Source of the DNA: Apostichopus japonicus
Taxonomy: Eukaryota; Echinodermata; Holothuroidea; Aspidochirotida; Stichopodidae
Length of the DNA stretch: 64,000 nt
Direction: 5' to 3'
NCBI RefSeq assembly: GCF_037975245.1
Contig: NC_092576.1
Location: 9,875,501 to 9,939,500 of the forward strand
Below the pieces are notes generated by a model. The model was not told the origin of the DNA. It saw only the letters and a list, made by a program, of their open reading frames with translations, and made no database searches. This document shows, in pieces, positions 1,954 through 61,100 of this stretch (within the stretch, counting starts at the first letter, position 1; each line of letters starts with the position of its first letter). A program made the position numbers and the translations under genes.

Positions 1954-2252
1954 GGTGCTGTGGCCGAGTGGATAAAGGCGGTGGCATTTGAAGCAATGAG
2001 GCTTAGCAATCAGGAGGTTCAGGGTTCGATTCCCGGCCGGGTCATAGTACGGTGGGTTTTTCATCCAAGAGCAATCTACGGTTTTCCCATCTGAAATGAC
2101 TTTCTAATTGAAAAGATTTCAGATGGAAATTGAAGTGTTGAATTGGAAGCCACCCGACGTGTAAGTTGTAATCCACAAGCCCTTGCGGGTTTCTCCCACA
2201 TTTGTGGTCGCTTAAGCGTCGTAAAAATAACTGCTGATTATTATTATTTTTA
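1954..2252 (+). mobile_element. tRNA-derived SINE, full-length copy
   Basis: A tRNA-like head with A box TGGCCGAGTGG (1961-1971) and B box GGTTCGATTCC (2023-2033) is followed by a 200-bp body and a TTATTATT tail. TTATAACC repeats before and after (1946-1953 and 2253-2260). The A box and long variable arm resemble tRNA-Ser/Leu. Other copies are at 53214-53495 (plus) and about 50945-51157 (minus). It lies downstream of gene A. Confidence 0.8.
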
Positions 2253-4515: not shown

Positions 4516-6699
4516 CTTCGTATCGTATGTTGGGTTCTCTAGGCCGGTAGTCCCCAAGCTTGGAGTTGGTCTAGTGTGGGATACAGAAAGATATAAAAAT
4601 AATAGGTTATTAAAAAACATATCACAACAGAAAGAAAGAAATAACAAAGAGGAAACTTCAATATGTAATGTGAGCGATATTATTATTATTATGATGACTG
4701 AGTTAGTATTTTATACAGTATGGAAACACTTTAACTTACGTTTACCTCCAACCGGGACTATGTATACCGACACTTATGAGTGAGTTTGTTTGCAACAAGG
4801 AAATTAGAAAGTTTGGGGCATCATTTTGGTCTGCTCGTTTTTATTTAGGGTAAGTTTACAGACATCGTTTGCTTGGAATAAATAAACTGAACACAGCAAT
4901 AAACAAACGCACGCATGCGTATAATCGCACACAAGCCTGTCCATATTATTGTAATGTAGTATGTAGTTATATCCCCATCATATTACATTAAACATTTGCT
5001 TCCATGCCTCTTTGTCTTAAGAGTATTTACTTACTTCCTGTTCATGACTTATTCACCCTACACCCACATCATATTCGTAGAAGCCCCCTTTGCCTTAATT
5101 CCATGAAATACTGATGCTTATAACCACGGATGAAAACCTGTTGCATCTCATGAGTATTACAAATGTGGTTAGTCATAGCCATCTCCTATATGCCTTAGTA
5201 ATTATAAGTAAAAAACTCTGTGACCAGGAGTTTATGTCACAGAGAGGTTATCGCCCTTTCACAGAAAGTTGTAATGACTTAGATACTGTAGTCTTTTAGT
5301 ATGGAAAAAGACTAAGATTCCAGACTTCAGAGAGTGTAGTTCAGCCTGATACACTCCAGCAATAAAGCTTAAATTCTACAATTATATCTATGTCTGGAGT
5401 TTCTCTTTATCTGTTGTTCATTATACTGATTTAATAACGGAGCCCGAACTAATTGAGCCGGAGCACCCCAACGTAACAGTATATAAGGATACCATTTCAC
5501 TCCTATGTCGTAGAACTTATGTTCAAAACTGTCAACCTTTTGACTCTATGCTTATACCTATGATGTGAAAGTTTAAAACAGACACTTGCGTTTAGTAAAT
5601 GTTCTCTTTCAACTTGGCGCACGTGTCCATACATTTGATAGAAAAGTGACTTACAAATCAATGTTAAAATAATGCTACTATTTTTTTTACTTTTAGAGCT
5701 TTACAGTTATAGTTATTTGTAATTTCTGTGTGAAACGTCTGTTTAGAGAGAATACTTACATTGCCTTAGATTTCCTTTGTTGAAGGAATACAATTCCTCC
5801 TATGATTATAATGAGACCCAAGATACCAAACGACACACCCAGACCGATTGCGAGACCGTTTGCTGAATTGAAAGTTGGAAGGAAACGAAAAAAAAATCAA
5901 TAATTCATGAAACGATAGTCGATAAAGACCAGTTTCGTATTACAATAAATATTATAATTAATATTTTAATTTAAAGTTAAGCAGAAATGGAGTATGAAAT
6001 CTGTTTGGACATTATAATGAATTTCAGGAGAAAATAGTATACAGGGGTCTCCAATTGGCTATAGAAAGGTTCAGGAAAATTTATATTGAGTTAATGACCA
6101 AGTTCTGTGCTGCCCAAATCATTTATAAATAAAGTCATAATACAAAGCATAAATATTATTATAAGGGATTCTTTGTTTCAATACAAGAACCTCTTCCCAA
6201 TACGCCAAACATAATATAAAAGCCAACACCAACATTTTAAACACAAAAGGTTGTAGTTATTGCGTAGAAAAAAAAACAATTACTTCAGAAGTTTAACTAC
6301 TCCAATGTATGTTCGTTAGGGTCTCTAATGTTCTATCAGTACGCATTCATACAAAGTGGAACCACTGTGGCCGATTGGTAGGGACTTAGTGCTGTGATAC
6401 AACGGCCCGTGGTGCCGACTCATAACTTCGACTGATGATTTCCTAAAGGACGGAACCGGTCGTAAAGTGGAATTTTTCTGGTGAGGTGATCTTTATATGC
6501 CTCATTTCCGAATGAGAGAAAGTACTACGTCAATACCTTCACCAAAGAAAGAGTGAACTTTTCATTACGATTTGATAGATTTTATGCAACTTGCTGAATG
6601 CTGACTTTAACTGGAAAATCACAACCATATAGTTCCACGAAATTTTAACCAGAAGAAAATCAACTTTAAACTTACGATTTTTGTCATCTATTTCCGAAC
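4516..6699 (-). CDS. Gene A exons 19-21: stalk, transmembrane helix and NPxY tail
   Basis: Exon 19 (6676-6699) is a 24-nt micro-exon coding SEIDDKN. Exon 20 (5760-5862) codes the membrane helix [20 protein letters not shown] and on to IVFL, followed by QQRKSK, a basic stop-transfer stretch. Exon 21 (4516-4570) codes [19 protein letters not shown]. Its acceptor has a good pyrimidine tract and its donor is GTAAGT, with phases 2-0 exactly as in gene B exon 21. The NPTY segment matches the NPxY signal by which LDL-receptor family tails are taken into clathrin-coated pits. Gene B lacks it. Exon 21 was found by phase and position, since the overall tail similarity to gene B is low. Confidence 0.78.
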
Positions 6700-46762: not shown

Positions 46763-48640
46763 TAATAATAATAACAATAATAATAATAATAATAACAACA
46801 ACAACAATAATAATAACAACAATAATAATAATCATAATAATCATAAAAATAATAATAAAAGTAACCAAAAAAAAGACAAAAACGTTAATACTAAACTGTC
46901 GGTAGTTAATTGAACATGGAGGATGCGTTGCTTCTAAATATAAGTGTGAAGTATAAGCTATACATTGTCGACGGAGATGCCAGTCAGAAGTTTCAGTAAA
47001 CTGTGTAACCAGTGATGATTCAGAAAGAATATTAACGCTCTCCAACTAAGCAAAACATAATCAATGATAGTGATTTTTTGATTCAATAAATTAAAAACAA
47101 AAACAGATAGCTCTTCTTATAATAAAACCATAACTGAATAAGAAACACCATTAGACAGCAATATTTACAGGCCCCCCCCCCCCACCCACCACCTCCACCC
47201 CTCCCAGATTGTGTGTAGGCTAATGTTTACTTGCATGTCACGCTCCAGGCACTCGTACTGATAGTAGGAGCATCCCCTCTCTATCAGATAACGGTTAGAA
47301 ACTGTTTATACTTTTAGTACGAGTGCTCTGAAGCATGGTTTATGGGGGAAAGCATAGAGTGCTATTAGCATGAGAAAATTGTTCCTACTGGCATTTCTTG
47401 TTCAGATCATACATGTTAACGTTGCTATAAATATTCCTGATCATATATATAGATTATAGTGGAAGTTGAGGATACGCTGATTGTACCTGTTCAGAGTGGG
47501 TTTGCTATCGACGACTTTCTCTTCTCGGACTGTGAAGTTCCCCTCCCAGTGCTATCTGGAACATGTGGTGCCCAGCAGACACAGTGTAGCAATGGCGTTT
47601 GTTACCCAGCTAACCAGCAGTGTGATTTTGCACTTGATTGCTGTGATGGCACGGATGAGCTACCGTCACATTGTAGTAAGTAAGACTGGATTATTTGCGA
47701 CTTCTCAACTAGCCTCTGGATTGTTAGGAATAACATAGGGATTAATTTTTAATTTTCAAGTTTAAGAAGTGTATTACTTTTGAACTTATCTATACGGTGC
47801 GCCTGGTTGATGTGCGCATGGGGGGGGGGGGGGGAGCGGGAGGGATTTGGATACAAAGTATTCAAATCGACTAACGTAAATAAAGAACGGATTTCATTCA
47901 GTGTCGCCTCGAAGTTAACACTCAGTTCATACTCCAATTCAACCGAGTATTTTGTCAGGTGCTGTTTAGTATTAAAATAGGCTATGACGTAACATTTTAA
48001 TGATTAAGATTAGATAAAATGTGGTTATATACTCGTTGGTGAAATGAAACTAATCATTTTAAGTAAAGCACAGAAAGAGAGACGAAATAATACGAAACGA
48101 TACGTATGAAAATATAACAACTATATAAGAAACAGGATATAACGAAACGAAACGACGCAAATAAACCCAAAATAAAACAGAACAGAAAAGGTAAGGAAAA
48201 CAAAAGCAAATCAAAGCAAAGCGAAGCGAAACAGTAGAATGATTTCTTCATTAATCATATTTCTTTATATTTAGCCTCGTATAATATGTGCAACTTTGAA
48301 TCCGGAATGTGTGATTGGACAAATTTGAACGATGATGAATTTGATTGGACGTGGAACAAAGGAGGCACTGGTAGCGGTGGTACTGGTCCTGGAGCTGACC
48401 ACACCCTTGGAACTTCTGAAGGTAATGTGCGCTATTTCATATGCAACTAAGGGTATGACTGACGTTAAAGACATGAATGTGAGATATGTAATGGAATTTA
48501 ATATGTAATCATTTAATATAAGATAATGTAAAACTAATATATGCTTGTGTTTAGTCGTTCGGAGTGTGTAGATATTCATTGAGGGCATGGGTTCGAATCC
48601 CGGTGGAGGCTGGAAGTTTTTCCAACTCATTACGATTTTC

Positions 48641-48738
<98 letters not shown>

Positions 48739-57036: not shown

Positions 57037-58163
57037 ATGCCTGCTTATGGTACCATGATAGCCCGCACGGTCTTCACCATTATTTACTGTGCTTCTATAC
57101 TAACAAGGAACATTGTGTCTGGTAACTGTGACTTGACAGTATGTAAGTAGTATTCAGTGTTCTATAAACTGTGATTGAAAGATTAATATTATTGTAATTA
57201 TGTAATATTAGTCTGCCAGTCTTTACCACCATGGCAGACTATATAGGCCCCTTAATTTACTATTTGGCCCCATTGAAGTAACGATGATCTAATAACCTGA
57301 ATCGTTACGTGTCATGTAGTTTGTCATCAATATAGTTTATTATAAATCTATATATCTATTTAGCAATTTTTTGTTAAATATATTTATATATATTTATATC
57401 TTGATATGAACTTAATGACAGTTATTCTAAGCCAATTTATACGCTTTAACACACCAGTAGAATCACTGTGGTCGAGTGGTACGGACTTCGGTTCGTGACA
57501 CGAACATCCGTGGTTCGATTCCTACCTTCGCCTGATGAGTCCCAAAAGGACGAAACCGGTCGTGAAGTGGAATTTTTCTGGTGTGTTATTCTTTACTGAT
57601 TTACAATATATCTGTAACCACTTGCTACACATTCAATATATATATATATATATATATAGGTTTCCAACAATATTTTGAAAGCTTCAAACCTCATAAAGTT
57701 GTTTTGCTTATTCTACTTAATTTGTATCGTTAATCAACAGGTCCGATTGTCTGCAGTGGTTTGGGTTGCCCAGCCCCTGGGAGCGGCACCTCATACGTTA
57801 TCAACTCTGATAGCTCTTCCTCGACTTGTCAGGAAGTCATCATAGATACCATCGGTTACCCGAACGGATATCCGGGCACCTCTTGCGAATGGCAGTTTAA
57901 CTCACGGTTTAACTTTAGGACATCAGTTGTAGCGGAGGTCTTAGATTTTGACGGTGAACCTGGGGATAATTTACGTCTACAGGTCAACGGGTTTTTCCCG
58001 AATAGTTTCATCAGCATCTTCGATGGCGACGAAGACGCATACAATGCACGATCATTTCCGCCGTTCAGTATCAGAACGAGGCGTTTGCGAGTTGGATTCC
58101 TGCCTAATAAACATCAATATTGCAGAAGGGGACTCAGAATACGGCTTACGTTTTCTCTCGCTG
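57037..58163 (+). CDS. Gene C exons 1-2: signal peptide and first CUB-like domain
   Basis: Exon 1 (57037-57142) begins MPAYGTMIARTVFTIIYCAS and ends with GTAAGT in phase 1. Exon 2 (57741-58163, 423 nt, phase 1-1) reads CPIVCSGLGCPAPGSG, then TIGYPNGYPGTSCEWQF with the YPxxYP-C-W pattern of CUB domains, VLDFDGEPGDNLRLQVNG and SIFDGD. The C-terminal half has the usual RLRVGF strand and a final RIRLTF. Intron 1 carries the hammerhead SINE (57458-57592). Confidence 0.78.
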
Positions 58164-61100
58164 GTAATGTTGACTTTTATTTTACTCTTTTATTTTGCTT
58201 AAAAGATGGGGTGAATCGGCAGTATATATATTGCTCAAAACGATGATGATGATTCCAGACACCATATTTACCACGTACGTTGCTTCCGTAACTATAGTTC
58301 TCTTCGTTACTGTGCATATTTTAACTACTATCGGCTCTCAATCGAACTTCAGAAATGGGAAAGCTGTGATGTCACACAAAATCCGGCATACAATAAATAT
58401 TGTTGCATTCCGCTGAGACTCGACTTAAACATATTTCAAAAACCGGGAACGTATCGCTTATAAGTGCAATACCAATATTTCCCAAGCGGAATAGTACGTA
58501 ACATAATTTCAGCATAAATCACTAGAACTATTAATTCTTCAATCATGAAAGCTGTATTTTAAAACGATTCCTCTCTTTTTTTCTCTCCATACAGCTGCTG
58601 TTGAAGCATGTTTATCAACAGAAGCTGTTGAACTAACAGATACCTATCCGGTGACAGCCGTTCACACTCCCAACTATCCGTTGTTTTATGGTTCTGGGAT
58701 ACTGTGTTTTTATACAGTTACCAGTCCAGCTAATACTCAACTTATCGTAGAGTTTGTCAGTTTTCAGCTAATAGACTATCAGGATTATCTCTATATCTAT
58801 GATATAACTGATGCTGCCAATCCAAGGATCCTCCGCAGTTTCTCGGTTACAGATACCTCTGTAGCGTTCCAATCTTTCGAGTCTGGAACAAATGCTCTTC
58901 AGTTTGCGTTCCAGAATTTACCGATTGGCAGCCTACAAGGTATATTCGCTCGAGTAACATATGCAGGTGAGTTGTGCCCAGTAATCGCAACGGTGTACTA
59001 GATACGTGTACATGTTTTCAATGGCGCGGTGTTGAAGGTACGGGGGGGGGGGACGGGGGCGACGAGGGGGAGGGGAGGGGTGTTGTGGCGCCAATGGTCG
59101 GAATCAGGTTACAGCAGGGAACTTGTAGCAGAACAAGAGAGGGACGAAGTATTTGATAAAGCGGGGAGAGTGGTTCCTTTGGTTCGGTGAAGTGGAGTCC
59201 CATGTTAGACAAAATACTGCGCAGATATCATATGTCGACGGAACTTCTATATTGTTCGTATATCAGTCAGTCAATGAACAAGTTTTGAGATGAGTTACGT
59301 TATAATTTTAGTATATCTACTAGTATTACTTACAGGCTTAACATTCACAATCAGAGGGTTAAGAGCCCACTAGGGATTTTATTTTTTAGACCTAAACTTT
59401 AACAGTTGAGTCACTTGGCTACAAAGTTGTGATTCTTGTTCCGTTTGGTAGTTCTGGCAGGTTGGTGAATTATCAACGTTTCATAGCACTATAGAGGCAG
59501 TGTAAGTTTCAAGTCATGGTAGTCAGATGCTATATTTTTACTTAGCTCTCTCCTTTTCGCTATCCAAATTGAGACTCTAGTCCCGTCAGAATTGGCAACT
59601 GCTGCAGCTCTCGTGTGGTATGGGATATGTTTTATTAATTAATTGTACGTCATTGAAGGTTTTGTGACATCTACAGCTGATGATAAAAAGAGAAAATTGT
59701 GCTTAGTCTACTCGCTGCAGGGTAAAACTTTCCTTTACATTAATGCAAATGACAAACAATAGCAGATGGAATATTTCCTTATTATATAAGAATATGAATT
59801 AAGCTATACTGACTTTCTTGTTTCGCCAGATGTCATACCCACGTGTAGCGGACGTGGAACTAATACCGACCAATGCGCATGCTCTACAGTTAACGGAGGC
59901 TCACGGTGTCAAGTTGATGGAAGTATGTTAACATTTTTTTTATCTCTCCTGGGAAAGGTTTCTTTATTGTATAAAGACGTTTGAGAAAAAGAAAAAAAAT
60001 CGCCATAATATTAACATTTCAAGAACGAGCCGCTTATTGGAAAGCGAGTAAACAATACAACAAGAATTAAGAAAGTAAATAAGTTAACCAAGAATGTTAC
60101 AAGTTATTCTCAACCGCCGGGTGCCATATCTATTATTTATAAGGTTGCTATATAGAACTATATATGTTGATATAGATATGATATAAATGTAGCCTAGGTT
60201 TGATATTAAATAATATTACTTCTAGCCGACAAAATGTTCAGAGTTGAAATTTGTTCATTACGTAATCAATAATTTCCTCACATATATTTATGTGTGAGAA
60301 AATGTAGAACGTTATATCACTATGAGCTGATGACATCATAGGTTTGAAAAAAAAATACACAAATACACAAGAAAGTTACATTCCAATAATCTTATGCCCA
60401 TTTTTAGCTAAGTACTTAGCTAGTCGTTTTATGCTATAAGAAGGCATTCGGTTAAACCTAAACATGGCCTTTCTTCGTTCTCGGCATGACGAATTGGCGT
60501 TTTTTTAAAGAGAGGTGTGAACGGGAATCAAGCGGCACCGTTCCTCCTTTACTTCATCTCGTAGGCATTTTCACTTTCATAGACTCCTTGTCCAGTCGCG
60601 CAGATCTCTGTCTTACATAGGAACAAGTTAACAGATTTGCAGATGTTATAGTGCCACCCCACCTGTAACACATGTTACCGTGTAACGAACACAAAGTAGT
60701 AATTACTGATGCACGGTTGTGGGACGTGAACAGTATAGTTGCTGTACCAGCTATGAGTATGGGTGACCACAAGGTTTTAAGGAGACCGAACTATCTCTTT
60801 TGGAGCGCAAAAGTAGAGATAACTGCCATGAACAGATAAGAAAAATCTGATGCAGAATTTGGGAGATATCACAGACTTAATGTTTCTTCCAACACTTGAA
60901 CAGTCTACATATGACATTCATCGAGTCACATGTCCTTCACTTTGTTATTGTATATGTTTGTTATTTTAGGGTTTAATCCTCCGTTAACAAGATTACTTCA
61001 AGTCAGTAAATAAACAATCTCACGAAATATCTGATTATTTTGTCATTATTTTGTGATATCGTTCTGTTTCAACACTATGGCAGTTACATGCTTTCTTTTA

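Follow-up and report, generated by a model that had tools for sequence, protein, structure and literature searches.

The stretch of DNA analysed here (the window) covers 64,000 nucleotides of the sea cucumber Apostichopus japonicus (C16:9875501-9939500), and the genome searched comprises 671,581,487 bases in 35 contigs. On the forward strand, positions 57411-57637 hold a 5'-truncated copy of a short repeated element that we assign to the non-LTR retrozymes; the copy is 229 nt long, runs from position 312 round to position 199 of the 341-bp family unit described below and is 96% identical to it by blastn, and alignments of the copies give the same limits. On the same strand it carries an A box (TGGTCGAGTGG, 57469-57479) and a B box (GGTTCGATTCC, 57512-57522) of the type used by RNA polymerase III (pol III), as well as a type I hammerhead ribozyme (57515-57582) that matches Rfam Hammerhead_HH9 with an E value of 1.1e-6 for the window, its 40.0 bits falling short of the gathering score, which is 52. 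The A box was identified from the sequence, a pattern search with shuffles and its conservation, and the B box from the sequence, the same pattern search and the Rfam match. The last six bases of the B box, GATTCC, double as the 5' strand of the outer portion of stem I. The core motif CTGATGA lies at 57532-57538, and stem II (GTCC/GGAC), GAAA and GGTC are also present; these motifs and the B box are in the sequence just as the first-pass annotation had placed them, and the cleavage position that it expected, 3' of GTC between 57561 and 57562 (unit 121/122), agrees with the hammerhead alignment. Stem III, on which that annotation was silent, is formed by the palindrome ACCGGT (57555-57560) and consists of ACC/GGU without a loop. 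A run of TTTTT at 57574-57578, singled out by its conservation across copies, is a possible pol III terminator. An inverted repeat matching in 15 of 17 positions (57447-57588, arms 57447-57463 and 57572-57588, no strand assigned) closes head and ribozyme in the predicted fold and is not a terminal repeat. The region 57604-57637 contains the two 3' stops of the family, J1 near 57611 and J2 near 57637, and the window copy ends at J2, at the start of a (TA)n tract (57637-57658, no strand assigned) that, from its sequence and the TA-tract analysis, we take to be the target.

Chance is ruled out as the origin of these motifs, because the 25-nt hammerhead core matched once in the window and never in 100 shuffles, and the pair of A and B boxes, searched for with the general consensus of such boxes, has two occurrences in the window, at 57469 and at 1961, against none in 100 shuffled windows. 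A tRNA gene is likewise ruled out, since the element head gave no tRNA match with RF00005 at E up to 10 and none with ARAGORN; of the tRNA-like pol III promoter proposed initially, the two boxes thus remain and the tRNA fold does not. A MITE with terminal repeats is incompatible with the inverted repeat being internal to the unit and with copies that extend past its arms, and no match to any phage relative was found. Elsewhere in the window, positions 1954-2044 (+) hold the head of a tRNA-derived SINE that has both boxes (its Rfam tRNA match, at 21.8 bits, falls short of the gathering score, 29), and the open stretch directly 3' of the retrozyme copy, 57734-58246 (+), looks like a CUB-type exon. 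An older second copy lies at 6340-6496 (+). It had been described as sharing head, ribozyme and end with the first, and it does belong to the family, being 77% identical to the unit, but it reads GGAA in place of GAAA and its B box is decayed.

A genome search with positions 57441-57600 scored 40 of 1154 candidates, and 40 of 40 matched over the query at 96-100% identity. A second search, with the old copy 6340-6496, scored 40 of 450 candidates, ten of which were that copy itself or loci already in the set, while 30 were additional; over the 141-bp core of the unit, these divergent copies show 87-98% identity to it. Approximately 70 loci were examined across the genome. Direct copies at locus L009 lie 341 bp apart, and the unit was therefore defined as 341 bp, with a single copy rather than a consensus as reference and unit position 1 set at window position 57441. 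Aligned with their flanks, the near copies agree far outside 57458-57592, the interval in which the first-pass annotation had seen a minimal SINE of 135 bp; that delimitation did not hold, given the longer unit, the longer window copy and the absence of a fixed 5' end. A search of the genome with the Rfam HH9 model returned 33 matches among 58 scored of 44310 candidates; the best reached 47.0 bits and none attained the gathering score. Matches from this search lie at C8:12813202 and 12813540 (338 bp apart), C15:15238134-15243047 and C23:7701020-7993617. At L092 (C5:1759010-1759760) three hammerhead repeats derived from the 3' part of the retrozyme form a local array, which has spacings of 145 and 157 bp and contains (TA)n.

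Mapping on three consecutive units was done for 35 insertions with 59 segments, after leaving out L012, which is the L009 insertion, and the duplicates L010, L013 and L034 (of L005, L006 and L022, respectively). The 5' ends are scattered round the unit (3, 2, 5, 8, 5, 5, 8, 7, 7, 9 and 0 segments in consecutive bins), where the ends of the main copies are conditioned on the selection of the near set by a match to unit 1-160 and those of the partner copies are unconditioned. One of the 59 segments starts near the pol III start (unit 5-25), and two, both in L025, start near the cleavage site (unit 117-127). Tandem copies, which the first-pass annotation had proposed to look for, are seen both in the direct spacing at L009 and in the 11 of 59 segments that are longer than one unit; the longest continuous copy measures 642 bp, and no long tandem array was seen in the loci examined. 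Since there are copies longer than the unit, the template must have been either circles or tandem transcripts. The unit has a GC content of 41.6%, and its predicted circular fold scores -91.6, compared to -76.1 (sd 5.6) in 100 shuffles.

Preservation of the ribozyme core extends well beyond two copies: it is intact in 36 of the 45 near copies, a count that takes in three duplicated loci, and in 20 of 30 divergent ones, so that the genome bears out what had been postulated from the window, a dispersed family in which pol III-type boxes accompany the intact core of a type I hammerhead. Within the 45 near copies, CTGATGA varies by 3.5%, part of which is one deletion, compared to 2.4-3.0% in the flanks. 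Stem III comprises the pairs A-U, C-G and C-G, and no base remains for a loop. A monomer could form just the A-U pair, with CCGG as the loop, and this form is predicted at -9.3 kcal/mol against -17.4 kcal/mol for the best monomer, which is misfolded. Two copies, on the other hand, co-fold without constraints into an exact double hammerhead at a predicted -38.9 kcal/mol, compared to 2 x -17.4 kcal/mol, the palindrome of one copy pairing with that of the second; the ribozyme is thus predicted to act as a dimer through its loopless stem III. Pairing holds for 95.1% of stem cells in an alignment of 33 copies, against 32-50% in slid versions, but shuffles of the letters do as well. Compensatory changes, which had been named as a check, were absent from the same 33 copies, where none of the 19 stem pairs is altered on both sides. 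Covariation inside the family therefore gives the fold no support; as the copies are young (2-13% from the unit), the missing compensatory changes do not refute it.

The 3' ends are of two kinds. The 58 3' regions come from 38 loci, of which three are duplicates; 33 of them end at J1 (...TTTACTATATAT, unit 171), 19 at J2 (...CACATTCAATTCTTAT or shorter, unit ~199-208) and six read through into the next unit, the distance between J1 and J2 being 28-37 nt. By eye, a TA tract follows 50 of the 52 stops, the exceptions being one stop in L009 and one 33-bp fragment in L025, while TA-rich 40-nt flanks make up from 1.8% of places (in the window) to 3.2% (in the locus flanks) of the background. The divergent copies have matching 3' ends where these are readable, some of them decayed (by eye, uncounted). 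By our classification, 16 of the 35 insertions contain a head-to-head partner, with the 5' ends meeting. Twelve of these have TA tracts on both outer flanks (L002, L004, L007, L014, L016, L021, L022, L026, L028, L033, L036 and L039, the partner in L039 ending near unit 221, beyond J2); in L009, L017, L025 and L030 the partner ends elsewhere and there is no TA tract outside. The comparison of insertion ends took in a Penelope-like element and one tRNA-derived SINE family (window 48540-48655 (+) and 30642 (-)). The SINE family, which is often found beside retrozyme copies, gave 14 matches in the loci examined, about ten of which run into TA tracts by eye, and it has one end point; a TA tract alone is thus not diagnostic. 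A different hammerhead of minimal appearance (AGTTGTCTGA..GAAAC..ACAACT) was also noticed, carried by small elements in L014, L039, L060, L067, L068, L082 and L083. Several of these elements lead into TA tracts, some possessing a longer tail and others lacking it, and in L082 two of them stand head to head.

Penelope-like elements usually carry a hammerhead. A genome search for GIY-YIG gave 37 matches among 150 scored of 626 candidates, and 30 of the matches became loci. All three frames given to Pfam contain RVT_1 and GIY-YIG in one frame; two of them (L078 and L079) have identical scores and are possibly duplicates of each other, and RVT_1 in the third reaches 29.0 bits, compared to a cut-off of 29.6. 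No relatives of the protein were found in the PDB. In the main family of these elements the 3' end was readable in 19 of 30 loci, 12 ending at a J1 of their own (...TTTTTCTACTA) and seven after 31 nt more, and a TA tract follows 17 of the 19 by script count and L084 by eye. The copy in L070 runs into the next unit, L087 shows a tandem arrangement, and head-to-head partners occur in seven of the 24 loci with a mapped main copy, in six of which a TA tract lies on the outside; L067 and L068 are apparently a single insertion that was duplicated. Hence the target, two 3' ends about 30 nt apart, a tandem arrangement and head-to-head joins are common to the retrozyme and the Penelope-like element. 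Their sequences have little in common: the tails share TGCTAC...ACATT, 11 bases in two blocks with a score that 1.6% of shuffles reach, the best blastn E of the retrozyme unit against the 30 Penelope-like loci is 2.2, and a motif search did not find the hammerhead core in the Penelope-like copies of L087.

A purified Penelope-like protein, PAc of Anolis, starts reverse transcription at two adjacent internal sites, which match an optional genomic tail of 30-40 bp described as unique to Penelope-like elements; its preferred target is AT-rich DNA, in which it cuts as well as extends both strands (Frangieh et al., 2024; PMC11167929). Because the two-site 3' ends, the AT-rich target and the extension of both strands each have a corresponding scar in the retrozyme, we regard Penelope-like machinery as the best candidate for moving it. 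The sea-cucumber family resembles PAc in its two 3' ends ~30-40 nt apart, the AT-rich target, the extension of both strands, the tandem copies and a hammerhead near the start sites; in contrast to PAc, it has no reading frame and can at most be a user of such machinery. Moreover, the start sites on PAc RNA are not homologous to the cut DNA (Frangieh et al., 2024), whereas J1 of the retrozyme ends in TATATAT, like its (TA)n target. Penelope-like elements were already put forward as strong candidates for the mobilisation of retrozymes, in passages that point to co-occurrence and to common ribozymes and tandem copies (Cervera and de la Pena, 2020; PMC7229834), while a statement in the 2020 companion paper holds that no motif in retrozyme repeats helps to deduce the mobilising partner (PMC7761336).

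Every retrozyme feature tested was found: a type I hammerhead, the unit size and GC, multimeric copies and a self-paired RNA. As in the account of metazoan non-LTR retrozymes in PMC7229834, the unit falls within 170-400 nt with a GC content below 45%, copies are tandem or partially tandem, the circular fold is self-paired and no protein is encoded. The A and B boxes with their conserved TTTTT set the sea-cucumber family apart from that account, as does its palindromic loopless stem III compared to the more stable stem III of the invertebrate retrozymes described there; the passages on metazoan retrozymes make no mention of two 3' stops in (TA)n or of head-to-head pairs. Of the SINE features, the boxes are present and the tRNA fold and a fixed pol III 5' start are absent, and on account of these two failures we do not count the element among the SINEs, even if its head may function in the manner of one; the first-pass annotation was right in calling it a non-autonomous retroelement, one that perhaps circularises. 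Schistosoma already provides a SINE-like element in which a tRNA part and a hammerhead are joined. Compared by description, Sm-alpha and Sj-alpha likewise combine a tRNA-related part with a type I hammerhead in a dispersed element, there of ~335 bp (PMC8490949, PMC2770079, PMC4918200), but the portion describing Sm-alpha of S. mansoni has a tRNA-Gln recognised by tRNAscan-SE, where our family has boxes without a tRNA fold. A comparison, again by description, with the amphibian satellite HHR_Amex1 of axolotl shows a one-pair stem III closed by a palindromic tetraloop (here A-U over CCGG) and a predicted dimer, and the passage on HHR_Amex1 in PMC7229834 has it working much better as a dimer; unlike the amphibian satellite hammerheads treated there, ours sits in an echinoderm and next to pol III-type boxes. 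Our searches of open-licence papers found no echinoderm retrozyme, no retrozyme bearing Penelope-type scars and, Schistosoma aside, none equipped with a set of pol III-type boxes.

Whether the boxes act as a promoter is close to evenly balanced. With L092 set aside, 29 divergent copies have 1.05 changes per site over the boxes, the core and TTTTT combined, compared to 2.11 elsewhere. No circular shift out of 140 gave so low a value, and TTTTT stands out as the one stretch of this kind free of changes; it is unchanged in 30 of 30 divergent copies, and the 45 near copies contain one T to A change. This pattern argues for pol III transcription of the unit, to which we would give about an even chance. 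Because the B box overlaps with the ribozyme, constraint on the latter may explain part of the low change rate. With a probability only slightly lower, the boxes may instead be relics, the unit being transcribed by read-through from outside: both boxes are strictly kept in only 15 of 30 divergent copies, and in the 29 copies changes per site are more frequent in the A box (1.64) than in either the B box (1.09) or the ribozyme (1.10). Furthermore, TTTTT sits between the boxes and both 3' stops in use, yet copies ending at J1 or J2 come from a longer RNA, so that either pol III leaks through it, or it makes a separate short RNA, or the boxes are indeed relics. For a plant retrozyme, PMC9695139 and PMC12029980 report a promoter located in the LTR, and retrozymes are stated to seem to lack promoters in a passage of PMC7761336; a promoter inside the retrozyme would explain expression without read-through.

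The form of the template, too, allows more than one reading. The same element and the same Penelope machinery may have used linear multi-unit or read-through RNA from tandem source loci, the ribozyme being unnecessary for insertion and circles a side product, and we hold this to be a real possibility, somewhat short of an even chance. For PAc, hammerhead mutants had no effect on insertion and unprocessed RNA was the main substrate (Frangieh et al., 2024), and in ten insertions (two over at most 21 nt) the repeated parts within one insertion are 90-100% alike, no more than copies elsewhere (means of 90-98% to copies at other places). These identities fit circles followed by later mutation equally, however, and both the retention of the ribozyme core and the lack of any tandem array above 642 bp in the loci examined speak against such a linear template. 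An ordinary tRNA-type SINE moved by a LINE with insertions ending in (TA)n, with the hammerhead as a passenger, is unlikely: the boxes with TTTTT would suit it and the tRNA-derived SINE family of this genome also runs into (TA)n, but it leaves unaccounted for the two 3' stops, the 5' ends all round the unit with a single start at unit 5-25, the copies exceeding the unit, the head-to-head pairs and the missing tRNA fold. Very improbable, finally, is DNA recombination among (TA)n tracts without reverse transcription, with the ribozyme as a fossil; copies do sit in readily recombining (TA)n, and the array in L092 and the duplicated pairs L005/L010, L006/L013 and L022/L034 would be in keeping with it, but the fixed 3' stops are not, nor are 5' ends that scatter or outer flanks that are unrelated and spread over many chromosomes.

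We therefore favour, as the probable though by no means certain explanation, that the short element is a non-LTR retrozyme with a 341-nt unit moved by Penelope-like machinery, and that the window holds a 5'-truncated copy of it. The weak sharing between the tails, the TATATAT at J1 that resembles the target, the missing hammerhead core in L087, the SINE family that also runs into (TA)n, the variation of CTGATGA in the near copies, no lower than in their flanks, the position of TTTTT 5' of J1 and the lack of compensatory changes all count against this explanation. Under Penelope-driven retrozyme movement, the unit would be transcribed, perhaps in part by pol III from its own A and B boxes with leakage at TTTTT, a step to which we give about even weight. 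Two hammerheads would then pair via the ACCGGU palindrome, as in the predicted fold, and cut as a double hammerhead, and the cleavage products may be ligated into circles. The Penelope-like protein, with its reverse transcriptase and GIY-YIG nuclease, would take the RNA by the region 3' of the ribozyme and cut (TA)n DNA; the insertion signature suggests this protein as the mobilising enzyme, and the scars of this step are seen in the genome. Reverse transcription would start at J1 or J2, the cDNA could stop anywhere and may exceed one unit, and with both DNA ends extended two cDNAs could join head to head.

More tentatively, and as a proposal that we think may well prove wrong, animal retrozymes in general may be parasites of Penelope-like elements that mimic the Penelope tail, so as to obtain two-site starts on retrozyme RNA, probably a circle, from both ends of cut (TA)n. 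In A. japonicus this would be combined with the fusion of a pol III promoter to the ribozyme, in which the B box provides a strand of stem I and the terminator follows stem I, and with a ribozyme that acts only as a dimer. The literature cited here leaves open which enzyme mobilises animal retrozymes, and both kinds of element are present in this one genome. Since the retrozyme and the Penelope-like element occur here together with matching ends, target and joins, the question becomes testable with one protein and one RNA.
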